A DNA stretch of 20,475 bases, from IMG/VR virus record IMGVR_UViG_3300033153_005478, positions 1-20,475 of that record; one strand, 5' to 3'. This DNA comes from a virus. The notes under the pieces are model-generated. The model searched no databases, was not told the origin of the DNA, and saw nothing but the letters and a program-made list of their open reading frames with translations. Positions within the stretch are counted from its first letter, which is position 1. Each line of letters begins with the position of its first letter. A program made the translations under genes and the position numbers. Positions 1 to 18,259 of the stretch are shown here, piece by piece.

Positions 1-8
1 ACGGGCAA

Positions 9-365
9 TCAGGGCGAAGCTTTTTCCTCGCCCTCGGGCTTTTTTGACGCTTCATCGTCCTTCTTGCCAAAGTAGGTCTCTAACTTGCCAGAGAGGAAAT
101 TCGAGGCGGCCAGCACGGTAGCCATATCTTCCTTGAATAGATCCTTAAGAGGTAAGTCAAGAAGTATTGAAACTATACGTACTGCATCCTCTTGCTGCTC
201 TGAAGAAGATGCGTCAACCTTACCAAAAAGCTTGGATATTTCAAAGCCCATTCCGGTTGTCACCTTCTCCACTTTGTATTCCTTCTCCCCAAGCTTGACC
301 GCAAATGGCTCAAAGAGAGATTTCCTTTCTTCCACGGCCACTGCCGCTGCGTCAAAAACTTCCAT
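9..365 (-). CDS. Tail assembly chaperone (gpG-like), upstream frame
   Basis: This acidic, soluble protein of about 118 residues follows the tail-tube gene directly. That is where tailed phages carry the chaperone that loads the tape-measure protein during tail assembly. Family membership is inferred from position, size, the charged Lys/Glu-rich C-terminus and the frameshift signal, not from a diagnostic motif. An ATG at 380 would add five residues but has no ribosome binding site. The ATG at 365 has GGAGAG about 8 nt upstream and is preferred. The last codons contain a slippery A_AAA_AAG followed by a hairpin, so some ribosomes should make a longer gpGT-like fusion in the -1 frame, which stays open to the window edge. 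The tape-measure gene would be expected just beyond the left edge. Confidence 0.75.
   Translation of the reverse strand: MEVFDAAAVAVEERKSLFEPFAVKLGEKEYKVEKVTTGMGFEISKLFGKVDASSSEQQEDAVRIVSILLDLPLKDLFKEDMATVLAASNFLSGKLETYFGKKDDEASKKPEGEEKASP
12..45 (-). promoter_or_regulatory. Programmed -1 ribosomal frameshift element
   Basis: On the minus strand the heptamer A_AAA_AAG (45 to 39) is in the zero frame of the chaperone gene (TCA AAA AAG). It is followed by a 5-nt spacer (38-34) and a hairpin with an 8-bp stem containing one G-U pair: GGGCGAGG, loop AAAAAG, CTTCGCCC (33-12). The zero frame stops with TGA at 11-9. After a -1 slip the next 13 codons read ARGRGKSFALIAR without a stop, up to base 1. 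A_AAA_AAG is the heptamer of E. coli dnaX, and frameshifted tail chaperones are a conserved feature of long-tailed phages. Confidence 0.85.
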
Positions 366-417
366 TGTCTTGCTCTCCATTCATAAAGAATAGTAAATAC
401 TCCACCCTAAAGGATGG

Positions 418-945
418 TTAAGCCGTCTGACCATAACCTATTGCGAATAGGTCGTTGGCCTCATAAGTCTCACCGGACGGCACAGACGAGACCGGATAAC
501 CACGGAAGATAACTTTAGCGACTTCCCTATCAGTCTCAGCGTCGTAGACCTGCTCGATGTCAGGTATAGGCGCTGCTACAAAGATGGTAAGCCACTTAGT
601 TTCATCAGCCGAAGCTACACCATCTTCGATCTTTTTGATGACGAGCTCATCTGCGATAGAACGAGCGTTGGTTCCAACATTAGTTGCAACCATTAACTCA
701 TTACCGTCCACAGAAGCGCCCGGAATAATTGCAGCCAACTCAACGAGGCTACACTCAACAAGAACTGCTTCAACTTCGCAGCTCTTCCCAGTGTAAACCT
801 CATCTTTGGGAGCTGTACCGGTACGCGCTGTGCGATGAGGAGCCACATCATCAGAAGTTCGGAACGTCACACGAGCATTTTCAGAGAGCGTAGTGTCTCC
901 GAATTTAAGCTCGCATGGTCCGAGGTCTCCAAGTGGATATGACAT
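418..945 (-). CDS. Major tail (tube) protein
   Basis: This 175-residue protein is probably the subunit that polymerises into the tail tube. It is rich in beta-forming segments, lacks signal peptides and membrane spans, and starts with MSYPLGDLGP. It is preceded by a strong AAGGAG site 7-8 nt before the ATG, as expected for a highly expressed structural gene. It sits between the tail-terminator-like gene and the chaperone with its frameshift site, the canonical place for the tube gene. No sheath gene lies beside it, which argues for a non-contractile tail. The assignment rests on gene order and general character; no single catalytic or family motif proves it. Confidence 0.75.
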   Translation of the reverse strand: MSYPLGDLGPCELKFGDTTLSENARVTFRTSDDVAPHRTARTGTAPKDEVYTGKSCEVEAVLVECSLVELAAIIPGASVDGNELMVATNVGTNARSIADELVIKKIEDGVASADETKWLTIFVAAPIPDIEQVYDAETDREVAKVIFRGYPVSSVPSGETYEANDLFAIGYGQTA

Positions 946-960
946 TTTAATTCTCCTTTC

Positions 961-1365
961 CTAGGATTCCTTAATACGGACGAGGTAATTGGTACTGTAT
1001 TCAAACCTACCACGCGCATCCCTACCCAAGGGTTGGGGTTTAGAGACTGCGTTGCAGACTTCAATATAGTATTGAGAGCCACTATCCACAAGAGGGAGAG
1101 TTACCCCCCTCAAACCTTGGAGGACTACATAGAGGTTAGTTGCCAAGGTCTCAGCATCGACCCAGGAGCCGTTGACGCCTGATCTGGACAATACCTGAAC
1201 CATATGGCTTGTGCGCGTCGTAGAGTGCACCACGCTCGCTGAAGGCCTATCTATGACAACGGAGCAAGCCGCCTCAGCGTCCTCTGGCCTGTCTGTAGCA
1301 AAGAGGTCTGAGCCTATGGTCAAGCTGGCCTGTGTCGCAATATATGTAGTCAGTTCACGTATCAT
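961..1365 (-). CDS. Tail terminator / tail completion protein
   Basis: This 134-residue protein starts with an amphipathic helix (MIRELTTYIATQ) followed by beta-rich sequence. Tail-terminator and minor capsid 3-like proteins, which cap the tube and join it to the head, have this general plan. Its ATG overlaps the stop of the preceding neck gene as ATGA, so translation is probably coupled. The tail-tube gene follows after 15 nt. Head connector, neck, terminator, tube is the normal order in siphoviruses and is the main reason for this call. Confidence 0.6.
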   Translation of the reverse strand: MIRELTTYIATQASLTIGSDLFATDRPEDAEAACSVVIDRPSASVVHSTTRTSHMVQVLSRSGVNGSWVDAETLATNLYVVLQGLRGVTLPLVDSGSQYYIEVCNAVSKPQPLGRDARGRFEYSTNYLVRIKES

Positions 1366-1901: not shown

Positions 1902-2194
1902 GCCAAATACACCTTTGTGACACTGTACGAAAAAGAGGTTGGTTTCTGTACAGATAGAATAGCTCTGTCAACGTCATTCACGGTAATGAGGTCATTGTAG
2001 CTGAAAGCCACATCGTCGGCAAACTCCACCATAGCCGTAGACACAACTTCATTGCCGAACCTATCCCTTACCATTCTGTCACCCTGTAAGAGTATTCCTA
2101 CACGAGTCTCAGTAGTGGGAGAGTTTGGATCACCCCACTGATCTTGTCCACCAGTGCGTTTTATAGTAATGTCATAACCGTATGATCCTATCAT
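1898..2194 (-). CDS. Head closure / minor capsid 1-like connector
   Basis: This 98-residue, mostly beta-rich protein has the sequence GYDITIKRTGGQDQWGDP near its start. Small head-closure (stopper) proteins share this general pattern: a short beta-barrel that opens with a description of 'type and units' strands and includes a WG turn. It lies between the minor head protein and the neck protein, overlapping each by ATGA. The likely role is plugging the portal after packaging. Size and position support the call; sequence alone would not decide between a stopper and another small connector. Confidence 0.55.
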   Translation of the reverse strand: MIGSYGYDITIKRTGGQDQWGDPNSPTTETRVGILLQGDRMVRDRFGNEVVSTAMVEFADDVAFSYNDLITVNDVDRAILSVQKPTSFSYSVTKVYLA

Positions 2195-3072
2195 GCCGCT
2201 AGACTCCTTACTGACTCCATGTGATATAGGTCCCTAGCGCGCAGGGCTTCAGAGAACCTGGGCAACATCACATGCCTGCAATTAGGATGGATAGGAGTCC
2301 GTCGTTCTAGCTTTGGAAAGTCTGGATTCCTACCGTCTACCGAAAACGTGCGCCCCTCATAGGGGGTGCATTTATCACAAGCTCCAACGTGTTTACTCAT
2401 GGTGACCAAGTCGGCGCCCCATTCAACACCTTGGTTTATAGAACCCTCGGTGACGGCCTCTCGCGTCTGAGTCCTCGCCACCAGTTCAGCATAGTAAGTA
2501 GGAGAGAACTTCCTACCTCTGGCATACACTACATCGGCACCGTTGAGGTTGTTTAGGAAACCGAAGAGTATCTCATTAGACACCTGTTTTCTAGGAACAC
2601 CCTCCATGATACCAGCGGCCACAGCCCTATTAATAAACCCCTCACTCAAGATAGTCTGTTGGGTGCTGCGTATGACCCTCTTCAGACTGGAAGCCCAGCT
2701 CTGATTGGCAGCCAACATAGTCACTGTGATATTGTCGGCCAAAACTTGAACAGCCTGCTTATGGAAAGGAGACAAGACCACCTTACGAGTTGGAAAGCCC
2801 TCGAAGAAGAGGCTCGTAGCCGCCAAGCCCATACCATAGCGATACATACCGGTAGTCGTCTTGCTTGCCCATTTACGAGTCTTGGAGTTCAAGAAGGCCA
2901 CCTCAGCGTCAATCTGGGCCAAGAGGCTCTCAGCCTTGAATCGCGCAGGACTCGACAGATCGGCTAAGCGTAGACGTTCCACTAGCGCTTCCCTTCGAGT
3001 CGAGTAGATAGACACCAACTCAGAGATGAAAGGCATGGAGTACTGCTCAATCTGTAGTTCCTCGTGAGTCAT
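2191..3072 (-). CDS. Minor head protein, Mu gpF / SPP1 gp7-like (minor capsid protein 2 type)
   Basis: This 293-residue protein belongs to the large group of minor head proteins that sit near the portal and may be co-ejected with DNA. The C-terminal third has the family signature: a helix with ARTQTREAVTEG (about 199-210), CDKC (232-235), a short PYEGRTFSVDG segment, and PIHPNCRH (260-267). The Cys and His residues form the probable metal-binding site of the MuF fold. The N-terminal two thirds is helical. Its start lies after a small gap behind the membrane-protein gene, and it has no strong ribosome binding site, so re-initiation from the upstream gene is likely. In many phages this gene sits next to the portal. 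Here it is separated from it by the capsid genes and the glycan cassette. Confidence 0.85.
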   Translation of the reverse strand: MTHEELQIEQYSMPFISELVSIYSTRREALVERLRLADLSSPARFKAESLLAQIDAEVAFLNSKTRKWASKTTTGMYRYGMGLAATSLFFEGFPTRKVVLSPFHKQAVQVLADNITVTMLAANQSWASSLKRVIRSTQQTILSEGFINRAVAAGIMEGVPRKQVSNEILFGFLNNLNGADVVYARGRKFSPTYYAELVARTQTREAVTEGSINQGVEWGADLVTMSKHVGACDKCTPYEGRTFSVDGRNPDFPKLERRTPIHPNCRHVMLPRFSEALRARDLYHMESVRSLAA

Positions 3073-3728: not shown

Positions 3729-4262
3729 TTAGTTTCTCCTACACACTATATACCAGAATGGTCCCTTACTCTCTATCACGTGAGGGATGCCAGTAAACAG
3801 ATCCTCCAGCATCTCCTCAGTGTAGACTCGAAGGTGGCCGGGATCGTTTACATGCTTGTTGGGGGTAGTCACAACCATCGCCTTACGTGTCAAAGACCAG
3901 ACACCTAGAATAAACTTACGATCCCACTCTACATGCTCAATAACCTCAGAGCATACTACACCATCATAGAACACCCCAACAAGGTCTTGTATGGAGTACA
4001 CGCAGAGGAAATCCATCCCAGTGAAGTTCTCACGCGCCTGCTCAATAGCGTCAGTAGAGAAATCAATACCCGTCCATTCACCGTCCTTCATACGTCTCAT
4101 GTAGTCCGTAGAGTGCCCTAGACCACAACCGACATCGGCAAAAGTCTGGCCTTCTAAAAAGGAGACGCAACTTCTAAACCTCGCCTGGTGCTTGGGAGAA
4201 GCCAAGTTTCTCCAAACCTCTTTCCTGGCCCAATGCTTAGAAATGTAAGATGAGGCGTCCAT
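3729..4262 (-). CDS. SAM-dependent methyltransferase (class I)
   Basis: This 177-residue enzyme has the motifs of a class I SAM methyltransferase of the Methyltransf_11/23 type. Motif I is FADVGCGLGHS (41-51), the acidic end of strand 2 is TGIDFSTDAIEQA (about 64-76), and the motif II region, GVVCSEVIEHV, is followed by a VVTTPNK strand. The acceptor cannot be read from the sequence. Within the cassette a sugar hydroxyl, amine or phosphate group on the growing glycan is most likely. The start overlaps the preceding glycosyltransferase stop as TAATG. This is the last gene of the cassette, just before the adaptor gene. Confidence 0.85.
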   Translation of the reverse strand: MDASSYISKHWARKEVWRNLASPKHQARFRSCVSFLEGQTFADVGCGLGHSTDYMRRMKDGEWTGIDFSTDAIEQARENFTGMDFLCVYSIQDLVGVFYDGVVCSEVIEHVEWDRKFILGVWSLTRKAMVVTTPNKHVNDPGHLRVYTEEMLEDLFTGIPHVIESKGPFWYIVCRRN

Positions 4263-4987
4263 TAAAACTCCCTACCCTTCGGACCATAATATTTCTTATA
4301 GTACTCAGCAAAGAATGCATTACGCTGAGACTTCAAAGCAGTATTTTTGAACATGGCTGTCTTATCACTCGCACAAGGTAAATTCCTGTAATTTTTTGTA
4401 GGAACAACATGTTTGGGTGAATAGGTGTGAACCTTCATCTGATGCCAAAGATCGTCGCAATTGGGAAGCATACCACGAGTGTCAAAACCAAAGAGACTAC
4501 GAGAAGCAAGATAGACAACACCAGTGAAACCTACACGAGTGATCTTTTCAACACCAGCCGAATTATAATATGGACAGTCTTTATAATAGTCCTCTCCTTT
4601 GAATACACGGCCTATAATACCTACAAAACCCCCTACCTTATCCCAACCACTAACGAGATCTTGTGCGAAGCCCTCGCTAGGGACCACGTCATCATCAGCA
4701 CAAATGATGAGGTCACCGTCTGTCAGGAGAGCCACTCCATAGTCGGCGCGAGTTTTGAAATCCCAAGGCATCCGCCAATAGAGGAAACGATGATCCCCGT
4801 CAAAATCAGTCACAGGTATAACAGACTCCACTGAAGACATTGCAAGCCATGCCTGACCACCATTATCAAGAAGCAATACCTCATCAACAGGTTGATCCAA
4901 CCAACCTCTGACTACTTCAGACAGTGTAGACGCCCTACTTGGGTGGTAGGTGGTAATCAACACTGAAACTGTTTTACCATTTATCAT
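4262..4987 (-). CDS. Glycosyltransferase, GT2-like (GT-A fold)
   Basis: This 241-residue protein opens with VSVLITTYHPSRASTL, the first strand and nucleotide-binding loop of GT-A enzymes. It continues with VDEVLLLDNGG and reaches the metal-binding acidic motif ICADDDVVP (95-103), which coordinates the divalent cation and nucleotide sugar. A second acidic group, PNCDDLW, lies where the catalytic base is often found. No membrane segment is seen, so it is probably cytosolic, transferring a sugar to a soluble or peripheral acceptor. The donor and linkage cannot be predicted. Its ATG overlaps the sulfotransferase stop (TAATG) and is preceded by GGAGG and AGGATA. Confidence 0.8.
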   Translation of the reverse strand: MINGKTVSVLITTYHPSRASTLSEVVRGWLDQPVDEVLLLDNGGQAWLAMSSVESVIPVTDFDGDHRFLYWRMPWDFKTRADYGVALLTDGDLIICADDDVVPSEGFAQDLVSGWDKVGGFVGIIGRVFKGEDYYKDCPYYNSAGVEKITRVGFTGVVYLASRSLFGFDTRGMLPNCDDLWHQMKVHTYSPKHVVPTKNYRNLPCASDKTAMFKNTALKSQRNAFFAEYYKKYYGPKGREF

Positions 4988-5568
4988 TATCCTACAACCT
5001 CCAAATCGGGCGCTTTATCAATCTCATCTATTAACTCAGAATAAGTACTTTTAACATTTTCTACGTGACGTGAATCAAAACGCTCGATCCAAGACCTCCG
5101 CCTCCGATATGGAGGTAAGAGATTGAGGTCCCTCCCTGTAAACTTTTCAATCTCCTTTATGTGATCCCACATCGTCTCATAGCGAATACGCAACGTAGGT
5201 ATCGTAGGTCGCTTCCAAGAATTGAAGATTGCCATTAACCCCGCACGGTCGGAGGACATCAAGTCCGACACGTCAGCGCATCTAGGAATACCAAGAATCC
5301 TTCGACTCACTTCATCCCCTCGACCCCTCACTAGAGACAAGACTGCCAAGACTATATCCCCAAAAATGAAAACAGCACGGTCATAGCCTGAGACGAGATC
5401 GTCAGAAAAAGGTTCATGTGTTTTCAATACACCGTTCGTCTCCGTCAGACGAGTTCGTATTCGCGGCCATACTTTGTTGCATGGCAACCCCGCCAACGCA
5501 CGCGCCATTACAGTCGTCCCACAACGTGGGATTCCAGCAAGGATAATTTTGTCATTACTCACTATCAT
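4987..5568 (-). CDS. Sulfotransferase-like protein
   Basis: This 193-residue protein resembles PAPS-dependent sulfotransferases. AGIPRCGTTVMARAL (11-25) matches the 5'-phosphosulfate loop, which is typically 'g.prsGTT.l...L'. KTHEPF (49-54) matches the conserved KtH.p segment with the catalytic His, and a late RYETMWDH matches the 'YEdl' strand. The 3'-phosphate loop is less typical: FIFGDIVLAVLSLVR (68-82) keeps the Ser (78) but has Gly-Asp where an Arg is usual, so PAPS binding may differ. It is shorter than most relatives. A TTG six bases upstream is possible, but the ATG at 5568 overlaps the previous stop as TGATG. The likely role is sulfation of a glycan in this pathway. Sulfotransferases are uncommon in phages. 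Confidence 0.75.
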   Translation of the reverse strand: MIVSNDKIILAGIPRCGTTVMARALAGLPCNKVWPRIRTRLTETNGVLKTHEPFSDDLVSGYDRAVFIFGDIVLAVLSLVRGRGDEVSRRILGIPRCADVSDLMSSDRAGLMAIFNSWKRPTIPTLRIRYETMWDHIKEIEKFTGRDLNLLPPYRRRRSWIERFDSRHVENVKSTYSELIDEIDKAPDLEVVG

Positions 5569-5978
5569 CAGCAAACTACCGATTCCCGAATTAAAGTAGT
5601 AGATACATCAGTAGTACAAGGTATCCTGACAACCTTAATACCCTTCTCTTCAGCATACGCGAGCGCTGCAATATGACGAGGGGCCATAGGGCAATTCTCT
5701 TCCAAGGCGTAGACGTGTATACCCCACAGCTGCATCAACTTCACATAATCCTGATTGTGAATAGTAACTACAGAATCCACACAAGACAGGCTCGACAGCA
5801 TCTCAATACGATGAAAAAGAGGAATCACAGGCACACGACCCTTTGTCTTCATAGCAACAGCGTCACTCTGGACACCAACAACTAGTAAATCACCAGCTCT
5901 CTTAGACGCCTCAAGCGCTCTAACGTGACCTACGTGAAGGAGATCCCATACACCGGTCTTTAGGACTTTCACACGCAT
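5568..5978 (-). CDS. Cytidylyltransferase (TagD / CCT-like)
   Basis: This 136-residue enzyme has the nucleotidyltransferase signature: TGVWDLLHVGHVRAL (8-22), with HVGH at 15-18 binding the CTP phosphates, and STTLIRE (126-132) matching the C-terminal 'isTT.i' motif. Size and motif spacing fit glycerol-3-phosphate, phosphocholine or phosphoethanolamine cytidylyltransferases, which make the CDP-activated donor from CTP. The substrate cannot be fixed from the sequence. A LicD-family gene lies immediately upstream and overlaps by 10 nt, and LicD proteins use CDP-choline or related CDP donors, so the pair probably forms one donor-plus-transfer step. GGAG lies 7 nt before the start. A RfaE2-type ADP-heptose role is a less likely alternative. 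Confidence 0.85.
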   Translation of the reverse strand: MRVKVLKTGVWDLLHVGHVRALEASKRAGDLLVVGVQSDAVAMKTKGRVPVIPLFHRIEMLSSLSCVDSVVTIHNQDYVKLMQLWGIHVYALEENCPMAPRHIAALAYAEEKGIKVVRIPCTTDVSTTLIRESVVC

Positions 5979-6574
5979 ATCAGTTCTCCAGTTTTTTTAT
6001 GGATGTCCACATCGTAACCACCGAGGCCATGTATCCTCCGATAGTCAGGATAATGATGAAGCTTAGGATACTCACCACGCTTCTTCGGTGTCATAAAATC
6101 AGGACCATAAGCAGCCCTAAGATATTCTTCTACCGGAGAGGGAACTTGGAATACACGGTCAAAGAGGGTAATATCTTCAGTGTTCTCCATCAGACGCGCA
6201 GGGAGAACATTACTCCTATTCGTCAACGCTGTAGGAGTCCACCGCTCATCCCCGTTCTTGAACCATGAGGGAATATCGGCATGAACATTACCCCTATAAG
6301 CTTTACACGTCCCCACAACGTCAAAGGGCATACTTATCTCTCGCAATTCAAAGCCACGTTTACGCAGCTCCTCGGCAGCCCTTGGCCATACTTCCACCCA
6401 ATCCTCATTAAGACATCCCAAGTCAATATCAGGGTCCCAAGGGATAAACCCTTGATGTCTGTAAGCTCCGAGGCAGGTTCCGAAGGCAAGAGTATAAGGA
6501 AGACCCGCAGCCCTAAGAGCGTCATCAACATCAAACAGACATGCTTTGGCTTCTTCAGTATTCATTCCTGCCAT
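5969..6574 (-). CDS. LicD-family phosphotransferase
   Basis: This 201-residue protein carries the LicD/fukutin-type motif at 32-52: GTCLGAYRHQGFIPWDPDID, with the Asp residues that bind metal in the nucleotidyltransferase fold. Family members transfer a phospho-alcohol such as phosphocholine, or phosphoribitol/phosphoglycerol in related proteins, from a CDP donor to a sugar. The YPKLHHYPDYRR segment near the C-terminus is not diagnostic. The ATG at 6574 has GGAG 7 nt upstream and is preferred. An internal ATG at 6565 overlaps the previous stop as ATGA but has a poorly spaced site. The cytidylyltransferase downstream probably supplies its donor. The acceptor is inferred to be a sugar built by the neighbouring glycosyltransferases. 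Confidence 0.85.
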   Translation of the reverse strand: MAGMNTEEAKACLFDVDDALRAAGLPYTLAFGTCLGAYRHQGFIPWDPDIDLGCLNEDWVEVWPRAAEELRKRGFELREISMPFDVVGTCKAYRGNVHADIPSWFKNGDERWTPTALTNRSNVLPARLMENTEDITLFDRVFQVPSPVEEYLRAAYGPDFMTPKKRGEYPKLHHYPDYRRIHGLGGYDVDIHKKTGELICV

Positions 6575-7389
6575 GGTTGTACTCCAAACGGTCTCAAGAG
6601 TTCTAGTATTTCTGACATATCCCCAGTTATAATCCCACCCTTCTTCTTCACGAACCTGATTGTCTCATCCTTGTCATGGTTTTCAATCCCAGAGAAGTCC
6701 CCGGAGAGTAACTCATCCCTCTCCCTTAAAGTCAACCTCAGGGCCTGAACGCCATTCTTCAAGTGGTTAGTATTCTGCCCATGCCTGACATTACAAATAC
6801 GCTTTGGATTTAGCTCCAAGGCGCGAGACAACCTTCCGCCTAAACGAGAGTGTGCCACACAATTAATAGAGCGGAAGACATTCCAATCCTTGTAGACAGC
6901 CCTCGGAAATACTTGTGTTGTGCTGACTGGAGCTCCACGATAATGCCAAGCCAAGTAGTTATTGACCTTTTCCAAGGTATAACATACACGCCAAACCATA
7001 TATTCAACTTGGTTGCTAAGGACGGCCTTCTCTCTTACCTCGGCCATACACTCCTCGTGCATCAAATCATCTGAATCCAACCGAGTAATAGTCACGTAGT
7101 CAGCATCAATACTCTGAAGGAGGGCACGACCTTCATCATAGACCGGATAAATAGGTATCTTACTATCCTCCCATAACCACTTAGATGTCCTCGCCTTATA
7201 GCGCTGACCATGAACCAACATGATAATGAAATCAGTCGTCGTCTGGCGCTCCAAACTCCTAAGCGTAGTTTGCTTGAACATCTCCATCCGCTCCTCAAAC
7301 CACTCAAATGGCGGTGTGAAGCTCTTCCTATCCTTATCACTAAATACCTTGACTATCATTTGGACTTTTTTACTCATGGTTTCTGCCAT
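6562..7389 (-). CDS. Glycosyltransferase, putative rhamnosyltransferase-like
   Basis: This protein of up to 275 residues has features of the putative rhamnosyl transferase group with a GT-A fold. A helix with KQTTLRSLERQTTTDFIIMLV (39-59) is followed by the strand VTITRLDSDDLMHEE (99-113), whose DSDD is the metal- and donor-binding motif. Rhamnose as donor is only a family-based guess. Two starts are possible: the ATG at 7389, or the ATG at 7377, which overlaps the previous stop as ATGA. Neither has a well-placed ribosome binding site, so coupled translation is likely. Its end overlaps the LicD gene. No membrane segment is present. Confidence 0.75.
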   Translation of the reverse strand: MAETMSKKVQMIVKVFSDKDRKSFTPPFEWFEERMEMFKQTTLRSLERQTTTDFIIMLVHGQRYKARTSKWLWEDSKIPIYPVYDEGRALLQSIDADYVTITRLDSDDLMHEECMAEVREKAVLSNQVEYMVWRVCYTLEKVNNYLAWHYRGAPVSTTQVFPRAVYKDWNVFRSINCVAHSRLGGRLSRALELNPKRICNVRHGQNTNHLKNGVQALRLTLRERDELLSGDFSGIENHDKDETIRFVKKKGGIITGDMSEILELLRPFGVQPWQE

Positions 7390-7874
7390 GCCGCCGCATG
7401 TTTCCCTTTAGTGAAATCAACACGTTTCCAGCCTGCGTCGTCGAGCAGACCAGCTGCTACCCCAAGAGTCCTAGTATATTTAACATTGTAAGAAACATCA
7501 TCAAGAACCAGCCAACCCCCAGAGCGTAAGAGATTCATAGCCTGCCGGGTACACTCGATACGAGCGGGTCGTGGGCCATCCACGAGAACAAGGTCATAAT
7601 GCCCGACATGCGAATTGTCTATATCCGTATAATTACCTACAAGGGCAACACAAGCCTCACGGAAAGGGAGAAGAGCGTCACTCACCAACGCAAACCGCTT
7701 CTTATCCTGTTCCAAGGAGAACACCCTCTTCGCCATCTTCGCAAACCATACCGTCGAGCCACCGGAGCCAAACTCAAATACACACGACTTCGGCCCGAGG
7801 ATTCCAGCCATCCACTCTAACAAGTCGTCAGCGAGCCATGGCTTACTCAAGGATGTGTCGTCCTTCACACTCAT
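7374..7874 (-). CDS. SAM-dependent methyltransferase-like protein
   Basis: This 166-residue protein has a compact Rossmann methyltransferase core. Motif I is VFEFGSGGSTVWFA (32-45), strand 2 ends in FSLEQD (52-57), DLVLVDGP (94-101) matches strand 4, and RSGGWLVLDDV (about 117-127) matches strand 5. The GSGGST loop is typical of a group found in polysaccharide gene clusters. The acceptor is unknown; sugar O-methylation would fit the setting. The first 30 residues are a short helical lead. It overlaps the downstream glycosyltransferase and touches the upstream stop, consistent with a single polycistronic unit. A non-methylating Rossmann protein cannot be excluded. Confidence 0.75.
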   Translation of the reverse strand: MSVKDDTSLSKPWLADDLLEWMAGILGPKSCVFEFGSGGSTVWFAKMAKRVFSLEQDKKRFALVSDALLPFREACVALVGNYTDIDNSHVGHYDLVLVDGPRPARIECTRQAMNLLRSGGWLVLDDVSYNVKYTRTLGVAAGLLDDAGWKRVDFTKGKHAAAWQKP

Positions 7875-8779
7875 TACAAGCTGTCCTTTATAATCCGAAT
7901 GACATACTTTGCCTGCGCTGGAGGGGAAAGATAACGATCATAATACGCTTGACCCCCCTTAGCCCTACGCAGCCTCTCTCTGTCGTTATTCAACCAATAG
8001 TCAACCTTTTCCTCAAAGTCGGAGAGATCACGTTCACACTCACCCCAACAGTCTACAGGATTACCAGGTAGAATGAAATCAGGCTTAATAGTGAGGAGGA
8101 AAGCTCCTATACCCATAATCTCAGTATGACGCCATGTCCAGTCACCCCCTACCCCGGGAAGAGCCAGACAGACCTTGGAACTGGCTTGTTTGTGCATGTG
8201 ATCCATAAATCGGAGCTTATTACCCCTTACGCTCTCGGGCACCTCTGGTCTATTGCGAAAGTGCGCCACAACACAAAAGGATTTCCATCTACTGTTGGCG
8301 AGAATAATCTCAGCAGCCTTAACACGCATATCAAAAGCAGTAGCTCGACAGGCATGTATAATATCATAAGCCTTATCATCCCTCCAGTTCAAACGCCTCA
8401 ATCTGGCGGTATGGAGAGGATAACTGGAACTGCAAACAATCTGCCCTATAGGGAAGAAGCGTTCCCTCAGAGGGAGATCGGCGCGAGTCTGTATCTTGAA
8501 GTAAAAATCCCCTTGCTCCATCAGCCTCTCGTAGTGGTCTTTTTCAAAGTCGGCAACATCATACCAGACTCGATGCTTATTACCATCAATAGTAATGTAA
8601 AGAGGTATAATCCCACTAGCCTTCTTATCGTCATGCAGTTTCTTGAGGGCGTCGTTGGTTGAAACAGGAATACCCAGCGTCTCGAAACCCACCTTTAGGT
8701 ACGAAAACCAAGAGGAGAATCCGGCCATAATCGGAGGCCACTCAACACAGACAGAAGATGTGTCTACTACATTCCCCAT
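7874..8779 (-). CDS. Glycosyltransferase-like protein (exostosin / GT-B-like C-terminus)
   Basis: This 301-residue protein is not firmly recognised. Its C-terminal half reads like the donor domain of exostosin- or CAP10-like transferases. After a helix with FMDHMHKQASSKVCLALPG comes WTWRHTEIMGIGAFLL (214-229), where an Arg and Glu precede a Gly-Ala-Phe strand. An acidic region before the C-terminal helices follows. The N-terminal half has RVWYDVADF and GDFYFKIQTR, plausible as an acceptor domain. Context in a glycan cassette supports a transferase role; the donor is unknown. The start overlaps the preceding gene by 13 nt and is preceded by GAGGGTGG about 6 nt upstream. Confidence 0.6.
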   Translation of the reverse strand: MGNVVDTSSVCVEWPPIMAGFSSWFSYLKVGFETLGIPVSTNDALKKLHDDKKASGIIPLYITIDGNKHRVWYDVADFEKDHYERLMEQGDFYFKIQTRADLPLRERFFPIGQIVCSSSYPLHTARLRRLNWRDDKAYDIIHACRATAFDMRVKAAEIILANSRWKSFCVVAHFRNRPEVPESVRGNKLRFMDHMHKQASSKVCLALPGVGGDWTWRHTEIMGIGAFLLTIKPDFILPGNPVDCWGECERDLSDFEEKVDYWLNNDRERLRRAKGGQAYYDRYLSPPAQAKYVIRIIKDSL

Positions 8780-9417
8780 ATCAAACCACCCTCTTTACGA
8801 GCTTTCATAATTTTCATATCTCGCTCTTTGTGAATTCTAGCCTCTCGGTGTGTCTCATCCATCTCCTCTTTACAGAAACACGGATGATAGTGCTCAACAA
8901 CCACTTCACGGGATGTAGCAAACTTTCCAAGCTTTACAGCCAGCCAGTGAATCTCTTGGGCGGCAAAATGGTCATACTCAGGATTGAACAACTGCCGGTC
9001 GGGATAGCGGTCGAGAAATTTCTTGCCTACAATCGCCATACCTGTAGGATGGTGCGACTTATCCTGTCTCAACCCAAGGACACCATCAGTATCAGGAAAG
9101 GAACGCTCGAAGTCGTCATAGGCGCTCTCTATCATACCCTCACGGAAGGTAACATCATCTGTGCCATAGAGGATGTTACTATGAGTGTCTTTGATACCTC
9201 GATTCCTCGCATCTACAGACCCCACACGTGAAGGAAGCTCCATAATAGCTAAATTGGACCTATTGAGTATCCAATCTGGAGGACCACCCGAAAGACATTC
9301 TCCATCCAAGACAATGAAAACCTCAAGCCAAGGATAAACAGGGACACTCTCAACCATCCTTTTAAGTTTTTCAGGCCTATTGCGAGTAGCCACCAAGAGT
9401 GTAAGTGGAGCTGGCAT
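8767..9417 (-). CDS. Glycosyltransferase family 2-like
   Basis: This 216-residue GT-A protein starts with PLTLLVATRNRPEKLKRMV (4-22), the classic family 2 opening. It then has VFIVLDGE (33-40), a GSVDARNRGI segment (66-75) that normally contacts the nucleotide, and the metal-binding YGTDDVTF (84-91). It is short, consistent with a minimal catalytic domain without a membrane anchor. A Cys-rich CFCKEEMDE segment follows HYHP near residue 180; its role is unknown. Its start overlaps the upstream fusion gene's stop (TAATG), and its end overlaps the next transferase. Donor and acceptor are unknown. Confidence 0.85.
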   Translation of the reverse strand: MPAPLTLLVATRNRPEKLKRMVESVPVYPWLEVFIVLDGECLSGGPPDWILNRSNLAIMELPSRVGSVDARNRGIKDTHSNILYGTDDVTFREGMIESAYDDFERSFPDTDGVLGLRQDKSHHPTGMAIVGKKFLDRYPDRQLFNPEYDHFAAQEIHWLAVKLGKFATSREVVVEHYHPCFCKEEMDETHREARIHKERDMKIMKARKEGGLIWGM

Positions 9418-10733
9418 TATTCAATCCCCTTCTTGAGATACCGTGACGCCTGATGGTGTAGAATGACTGGATCACGGACATCCGACATCGAATCAAAGAT
9501 GGTACAATACTGCGCGGGTAAATCAATAATACGAGCTGATGAATAGCGTACACGTTTCAGTACCCTTGAAAGCGCTCGCTGATCCCACTCGCTGGGGTTG
9601 GCCTTACATTCATCCTCCCACGCCTTGAGCACATTATTCACAACAGGACAAGGGCGCATGAAGATAGTGCCACTGAGGAGCTCCCTACGAGTACCATCAC
9701 GTTGGCGATAGTGGATACCGATGTCGGCCTGGTGGAAGTCGCATAAAAGCGTAGGATATTTCAGAAATTCCGCATCGGCATCCACCATCAACAACGTACG
9801 GTCGGGAAACCTCTCTATCATCTCTCGGAGGAAAGTTGGTTTGTGTTGGACATTAGAGATCCACGAACCTCTAGACGGAATCCCTTGGATATAGTAATCT
9901 AAGCTAAACTTACCAACAGACTTCAGAAGGCGCTTAGCCTCCTCTTCATAGCCTGTACCAACGGTGTAATAACTCACAACGATTGGCTTGTCCTGCTTGG
10001 GGATGTCGGCCACATCACCAAAGCTGAAGCACGTCAGGGCGGAGTCTGGGTTTAGATTAACCACACGCCGACGCTCCTCCAGCATGGGAGCTATACGCTC
10101 AAAGTTTGGTACAAAAAGTTGCTTGTAACGGGACTCAGGTTGAACCATGGGGTGAGGAGTGCTATTCCACCAAGCTTGTGCGCCAGAGCCTAAGCCCTTC
10201 ATATCATAGCCAAGGAGGTATATAGGATCAGCCCCCAGGCAGTAGGCTAGATTGAGAGCGCCGTAACCTGAATTACAGCCACCACCCAGACCTTCACGCA
10301 TGGACTCAGTGAACTTATCGCCGCCAGCGGATACAAGGGTAAAAGCGTCACTTGGTATGTTAGGGCCGGTTTCGAGCCATACCTTGTAGCCTTTATAACC
10401 CCTCCAACGGGTGTCAAACTCCTCCCCGTACTTCTTTTCCCTGACCCACCTAGCAAAACGGGTATCCATCGAGAAGTTGATGGTGGGGTAGAAAGCCTCT
10501 GGTGTTCTATTTACCCCAATAGTCAATTCACCTTCAAGACGAGTCCAATCGAAGTTTTGTAGAGAGGGGCCGCCACCAATAAGGAAACATCGCTGGCCTT
10601 CCCAAGCCCTGTCTGGTATTTCTTTATAGAATGGACGTGAGGCTACAACAGGGTGATTGGAGTCCGCATGTTCCACAAGGCCGCGTCCGGCTCTCATTAC
10701 CCTTCGAGCTTCTCTTGAAGTTACTACCGCCAT
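9417..10733 (-). CDS. Fusion: DUF115/Maf-like domain plus nucleotide-sugar transferase domain
   Basis: This 438-residue protein has two domains. The first (about 35-245) contains CFLIGGGPSLQNFDW (49-63), TIGVNR (71-76) and the later GYGALNLAYCLGADPIYLLGYD. This is the pattern of DUF115 (MptE-like) proteins, which include the Maf flagellin glycosyltransferases. The second (about 250-435) contains LMVDADAEFLKYPTLL (315-330), an acidic GT-A motif, then SGTIFM (354-359) and WDQRAL (383-388), as in GT77-like transferases. The ATG at 10733 is chosen because GGAGG lies 5 nt upstream; a TTG 12 nt further upstream has no such site. It is the first gene of the cassette, just behind the terminator that follows the capsid gene. 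Direct protein glycosylation is an inference from the Maf relationship. Confidence 0.75.
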   Translation of the reverse strand: MAVVTSREARRVMRAGRGLVEHADSNHPVVASRPFYKEIPDRAWEGQRCFLIGGGPSLQNFDWTRLEGELTIGVNRTPEAFYPTINFSMDTRFARWVREKKYGEEFDTRWRGYKGYKVWLETGPNIPSDAFTLVSAGGDKFTESMREGLGGGCNSGYGALNLAYCLGADPIYLLGYDMKGLGSGAQAWWNSTPHPMVQPESRYKQLFVPNFERIAPMLEERRRVVNLNPDSALTCFSFGDVADIPKQDKPIVVSYYTVGTGYEEEAKRLLKSVGKFSLDYYIQGIPSRGSWISNVQHKPTFLREMIERFPDRTLLMVDADAEFLKYPTLLCDFHQADIGIHYRQRDGTRRELLSGTIFMRPCPVVNNVLKAWEDECKANPSEWDQRALSRVLKRVRYSSARIIDLPAQYCTIFDSMSDVRDPVILHHQASRYLKKGIE

Positions 10734-10743
10734 CACTACCTCC

Positions 10744-10777
10744 AAAAAGTGGGGAGGGGGGTATCAATCCCCTCCCC
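10744..10777 (-). terminator. Rho-independent-type terminator or attenuator after the capsid gene
   Basis: On the minus strand, 13 nt after the capsid stop, a 9-bp perfect GC stem (GGGGAGGGG, loop ATTGATACC, CCCCTCCCC; 77-69 with 59-51 of 10700) is followed by AC and five T residues (10748-10744). The U tract is short, so it should end only part of the transcripts. It probably lets capsid mRNA accumulate while the cassette and connector genes are read at a lower level. Confidence 0.7.
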
Positions 10778-17929: not shown

Positions 17930-18259
17930 ATGGAACACGATCTAGTCACAGACGACGTAATTGAAATTGTTGAGCCGGTTTGGCAACGCGGTGTGAAGCG
18001 ACCGATCGGCGAGCGTCATTATGTCGCTAAGATCGAGCGCGAATCTTACGGCGACAAAACCGGCCAACACACGTTTTCGCTTCGCGTGACCGAAGTAATC
18101 TCCGGCGAAGGCGTTGAAGTCGGCAAACTGATTCGCCGTATGGGGCGCAACGTTTATCCAAATGCATTTCTGCTGGAGCGCGACGAAGACAAATTCGAGC
18201 GGCGCGCAGCGGCCAAACACGACCGCGCGGTTATGTATTCGGCCCGGGCGTTGGCTTGA
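17930..18259 (+). CDS. Hypothetical early protein, 109 aa
   Basis: I do not recognise this protein. It is 109 residues, hydrophilic and charged, and starts MEHDLVTDDVIEIVEPVW. Its middle is beta-rich, with YVAKIERESYGDKTGQHTFSLRVTEVI, and a basic helix follows (ERRAAAKHDRAVMYSARALA). There is no membrane segment or Cys motif. An AAAGG site lies 8 nt upstream, so translation is likely. It is the first rightward gene after the control region, a position often used for regulators or takeover proteins; that role is only a guess. Confidence 0.7.
   Translation: MEHDLVTDDVIEIVEPVWQRGVKRPIGERHYVAKIERESYGDKTGQHTFSLRVTEVISGEGVEVGKLIRRMGRNVYPNAFLLERDEDKFERRAAAKHDRAVMYSARALA

Follow-up and report, generated by a model that had tools for sequence, protein, structure and literature searches.

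From our analysis of a 20,475-base window, which comprises the entire IMG/VR record IMGVR_UViG_3300033153_005478, a genome fragment, we consider it highly probable that its left end contains the lambda-type G/GT frameshift site of a tailed phage, equipped with a signal of the dnaX type. A slippery heptamer, a hairpin, a -1 frame that is open up to the start of the tape-measure gene and a conserved protein encoded in this -1 frame are directly seen.

The minus strand of the window carries a head and tail gene block of a tailed phage, as indicated by family matches of its ORFs. The following genes were recognized:

Minus strand: terminase (PF03237, PF17289).
Minus strand, in the head and tail block: portal-like gene.
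Minus strand: cement protein (PF09956).
2191-3072, minus strand: minor capsid gene (PF06152).
961..1365, minus strand: tail terminator, an upstream neighbour of the chaperone region (PF12691, E 8e-10, above the cut-off).
418..945, minus strand: major tail protein of an Ig-domain family, an upstream neighbour (PHROG 2175, E 2e-9; aligned with 11 relatives).
380..9, minus strand: G-like tail assembly chaperone ORF of 123 aa, assigned by its position and the -1 overlap.

ORF 380..9 comes immediately after the gene of the major tail protein and is the final ORF at the left edge; the window stops 8 nt beyond its stop codon, and the tape-measure gene lies beyond, on a second contig.

Elsewhere in the block, about 7 kb on the minus strand (3729-10745) is occupied by genes for sugar and methyl transfer, namely glycosyltransferases, LicD, a cytidylyltransferase-like gene, methyltransferases and a possible sulfotransferase. 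This cargo is flanked by the presumed major capsid ORF, which belongs to PHROG 24071 (function unknown in PHROG), and by head-tail connector genes, an unusual location. The minor capsid gene of the window (2191-3072) stands after the capsid gene and adjoins the connector genes, unlike that of the phages Tripp and KLEB27-1, in which it stands ahead of the scaffold and capsid genes. At the right end of the window, the plus-strand ORF 17930-18259 matched DUF7699 (E 6e-6, just above the cut-off); the other plus-strand ORFs scanned there had no Pfam match.

All parts of the predicted frameshift signal are located on the minus strand, which the preliminary description had not named:

58..62, minus strand: AAGGA, a Shine-Dalgarno-like motif 12 nt 5' of the heptamer; a short motif that may be due to chance.
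39..45, minus strand: slippery heptamer A_AAA_AAG, in frame in ORF 380..9 (TCA AAA AAG).
11..34, minus strand: putative stimulatory hairpin of 9 bp with a 6-nt loop (folding, -16.2 kcal/mol).
9..11, minus strand: zero-frame stop codon TGA of the chaperone (ORF call).
1..51, minus strand: beginning of the -1 open frame (T), which continues on the second contig to a stop at 5037..5035.

The combination of A_AAA_AAG with a downstream stem-loop is that of a dnaX-type signal, and the heptamer (45..39) is a canonical X_XXY_YYZ in frame inside the overlap, as is expected of a G/GT pair. The preliminary description had reported an in-frame A_AAA_AAG, a 5-nt spacer and an 8-bp hairpin before the zero-frame stop, and all of these are present. 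The 8-bp stem pairs 33..26 with 19..12; in the computed fold it is lengthened by an A-U pair (34/11) to 9 bp, which shortens the spacer to 4 nt, and its final base coincides with the T of TGA. A stop codon interrupts the -1 frame at 54..52; from position 51 no other follows before the minus strand runs off the window, and this open stretch had been described. It is possible that AAGGA at 58..62 acts as a dnaX-like upstream stimulator. Among 10 compared sites, an AAGGA-like motif at a comparable spacing occurs only in locus L006 (GAGG at 13); that of L033 lies nearer to the heptamer. The hairpin was also considered as a transcription terminator, a reading that was rejected: GATTGCCCGT comes next, without a T run.

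The combined signal is at the expected place and is rarer than synonymous recoding yields. Of 20,000 synonymous recodings, drawn with the window's own codon usage, 1,836 placed a canonical heptamer of any kind within the 20 final codons; in 313 of these the -1 frame was open as well, and all three features, with the hairpin at -16 kcal/mol or better, came together in 10 of the 20,000. Of the 23 minus-strand genes tested, ORF 380..9 alone carries a canonical heptamer in frame within its 35 final codons. Taken by itself, the hairpin stands out less: recodings equalled its stability in 60 of 3000 cases. Against dinucleotide shuffles it reached z values of -2.8 to -3.6 for pieces of 28-60 nt (1 to 3 of 200 shuffles reached its stability), and z was only -1.5 when exactly 50 nt past the heptamer, extended into the second contig, were folded. 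AAAAAAG by itself is not rare, with 3 occurrences on both strands of the window where 3.9 were expected.

The second contig was found by scanning viral contigs with the exact 26-mer spanning the site, which occurred in one other contig, IMGVR_UViG_3300033153_005864 (29,779 bases; hereafter L088), a separate IMG/VR record. One end of L088 overlaps the left end of the window with 64 of 64 nucleotides identical (window 1-64; region 1-5365 of L088), so that the two are identical base for base over the slip site. The remainder of the first 600 bases of the window had no further match to L088, and no match to the right end of the window was found in the L088 record. The G+C contents of the window and L088 are 48.3% and 47.7%, respectively. 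The 64-nt overlap between these separate records is short; they appear to be neighbouring parts of a single genome, or parts of two nearly identical ones.

Read across this join, the -1 frame stays open for 101 codons after the slip until TAATG, where its TAA overlaps the ATG of a 1086-aa ORF. This ORF matched the tape-measure family PHROG 167 (E 1.6e-6) and also TMP_3 (E 1.3e-7, but under the Pfam cut-off). Its nearest counterpart is that of L019, followed by those of L007 and L006; the major tail protein and terminator of the window likewise have L019 and L006 among their best matches. Two small ORFs thus lie between the major tail protein and the tape measure, conditional on the 64-nt dovetail. 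The preliminary description had proposed, as a check, an open -1 frame of roughly 80-150 codons ending before the tape-measure gene, into which the 101 codons on L088 fall; the early -1 stop beyond base 1 that would have spoken against it was looked for across the join and did not occur.

The same layout is found in related phages. Single-protein scans of viral contigs with the chaperone and the major tail protein as queries yielded no relative, nor did tblastn of these two proteins against phages; relatives were reached via the minor capsid protein and later two-row alignments. A large-terminase scan gave one weak locus, which was excluded from use. With a profile built from five major tail proteins, 19 ORFs were then retrieved in the loci searched, from which 13 distinct phages besides the window were kept. 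The rows dropped were the window itself (WIN and L001), L004 (same contig as L002), L009 and L014 (apparent copies of L008 and L019, with equal score and matching layout) and L030 (which ends ahead of the chaperone and resembles L032). L002, L019 and others have an extra ORF across the junction in a different frame; there the ORF ending at the tape-measure start was used. In all 13 relatives, three of which are named phage records with annotation, this ORF overlaps the chaperone in the -1 frame.

In 9/13 chaperones the last 35 codons contained a canonical heptamer in frame and the -1 frame was open (at least 40 codons past the stop), compared with 3/195 control genes, the controls being further genes of these loci (Fisher p 9e-11). 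Counted over the same 35 codons without the requirement for an open -1 frame, heptamers occurred in 9/13 and 19/195 (p 2e-6). As the chaperone genes are related to one another, both p-values overstate independence. The heptamers are distributed as follows:

A_AAA_AAC: L006, L033, L086 and L087.
A_AAA_AAG: L005.
A_AAA_AAA: L024.
G_GGA_AAC: L008 and L032.
C_CCA_AAG: L085.

The last 35 codons contain no canonical heptamer in the other four relatives (L002, L007, L019 and L073). In L073 and L002 one is present farther upstream in the chaperone, and in L007 (11480-11573) and L019 (12005-12161), which retain the -1 T frame, the 60 final codons of the chaperone are free of any canonical X_XXY_YYZ heptamer. 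A strong downstream hairpin occurs in some relatives only (z below -2.4 in 4 of the 9 folded).

The protein encoded in the -1 frame is conserved. T of the window and L088 matched the -1 ORFs of L008, L019, L006 and L033 with E values of 6e-16 to 8e-11 (11,483 ORFs) and that of L007 weakly (E 0.016). Its motif is FPGLF...LD.RDL..W, and F15, P16, G17, F19, L27, W35 and A39 are invariant across seven T sequences. Searches of T against Pfam and PHROGs recognized no domain family, and the T model had no significant match in BFVD. The T alignment A4 was too diverse as a scan query; a scan with the alignment A6 returned only loci already known and no bacterial genome. The L088 continuation, the layout in the relatives and this conserved -1 protein together support the G/GT pair that had been predicted from the window.

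In five of the seven T frames (L005, L008, L019, L033 and the window), no ATG, GTG or TTG precedes the FPG motif, so that there only a frame change or fusion can yield the conserved beginning of T; the exceptions are L006, with an ATG before the motif, and L007, with a GTG one codon before it. This bears on the possibility that T is a separate gene with its own start, TTG at 5268 of L088, whose use might depend on translation terminating at the end of G; the heptamer would then be incidental. A weak ribosome-binding motif, AGGGA, does lie four bases before this TTG, in L002 the junction is a GTGA overlap and a heptamer is missing close to the chaperone's end, and L006 has TAATG at the junction. 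However, the conserved stretch SFPGLF precedes TTG 5268 and would be lost from a T started there, five of the seven frames lack a start codon before FPG, and the heptamer is enriched in the chaperones (9/13 against 3/195); we therefore regard a separately started T as improbable. In the three annotated relatives, the deposited second gene begins about 70-120 nt past the chaperone stop. The earlier expectation that simple gene callers would miss the second protein thus holds for the fusion, which is unlisted in these records, but not for T as such, which is listed in truncated form.

A change of frame might also be transcriptional, made by slippage of RNA polymerase on the six-A run instead of by the ribosome. 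Transcriptional slippage occurs in bacteria on longer homopolymer runs, and a homopolymer run is present at the site. The runs described for bacterial slippage consist of 9 A or T (PMC5009743), whereas here 6 A end in G and are followed by the hairpin, and C_CCA_AAG and G_GGA_AAC, at the equivalent place in relatives, are without a long homopolymer; this makes slippage of the polymerase very improbable. A signal due to chance, or one gene split by a sequencing error, is hardly credible: AAAAAAG as such is no rarity in the window, but all 13 distinct relatives show the same -1 split, including three named phage records, and two separate contig records are identical over the site.

The designation of G as G-like, a chaperone, is based on gene position and frame layout. 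The 123-aa ORF had no Pfam match, and its PHROG matches were weak and to families other than chaperones; family searches with G and T gave no sequence match to a named chaperone family. The AlphaFold model of G was poor (pLDDT 64). Of the 50 matches listed for this model in BFVD, 11 were named tail assembly chaperone or tail assembly protein, including GT of N15, all with E above 0.05. Nothing significant was found among PDB structures, and the chaperone profile gave only chance-level matches, to aspartokinase, among PDB sequences.

The lambda G/GT tail assembly chaperone frameshift was reportedly described by Xu, Hendrix and Duda in 2004. The lambda slippery heptamer is G_GGA_AAG, and in dnaX the Shine-Dalgarno motif is spaced 10 nt from the heptamer. 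The window shares with lambda an overlapping ORF pair between the major tail protein and the tape measure, the second in the -1 frame, and a canonical heptamer close to the end of the first ORF; unlike lambda, it has A_AAA_AAG with a hairpin and a Shine-Dalgarno-like motif. With E. coli dnaX it shares A_AAA_AAG, a downstream stem-loop and a purine-rich Shine-Dalgarno-like motif upstream, the spacing of 12 nt being near that of dnaX. As described for these systems, A_AAA_AAG is the dnaX frameshift site, where the shift occurs at about 50% and gives the shorter product, while the ratio of the two lambda products is about 30:1, with G contacting the tape measure and T contacting the tube protein; the G/GT shift is widely conserved among long-tailed phages (PMC5009743). 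In contrast to dnaX, the predicted shifted product of the window is the longer one. The PRFect study counts 2397 annotated chaperone frameshifts in 3679 SEA-PHAGES genomes (PMC10885494).

A frameshift signal of a similar kind has already been published as a prediction for relatives, the four Paenibacillus larvae phages of the Tripp lineage that belong to Halcyonevirus (Halcyone, Heath, Scottie and Unity), in which a G/GT-like frameshift is placed in gp14 and the slip site is named as TAAAAAA (PMC6256684). Tripp (L086), a sister of these phages, has a homologous major tail protein (27% identity to that of the window) and resembles the window in its gene order, A-rich slip site and -1 T frame; it differs in having A_AAA_AAC, with no strong hairpin found downstream by folding.

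From the sequence, we infer the ribosomal slip, its rate, the fusion product and the roles of G and T. Most ribosomes on the G-like gene would terminate at TGA, giving G of 123 aa. A minority would arrive at TCA AAA AAG and be delayed there by the hairpin, to which the upstream AAGGA may contribute, and both lysine tRNAs would shift back one base onto AAA AAA. Reading in the -1 frame would then continue for 101 codons and give a GT fusion of 215 aa. By analogy with lambda, the G part would provide the contact to the tape-measure protein and the T part that to the tail-tube subunit, and the tube would thereby polymerize round the tape. We suggest only tentatively, taking both proposals jointly, that the complete dnaX-like triad (Shine-Dalgarno-like motif, A_AAA_AAG and stable stem) may shift far more often than the few per cent of lambda, resulting in an unusual G:GT ratio, and that L007 and L019, without a canonical heptamer, may enter T by a different signal.

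The site is a clear but ordinary further example of a known device, and the present case leaves the knowledge of tail assembly unchanged. It does call for a corrected annotation in one phage lineage, whose second product is probably a 215-aa fusion and not a short TTG-started ORF, and supplies a small family of T domains (FPGLF...LD.RDL..W).
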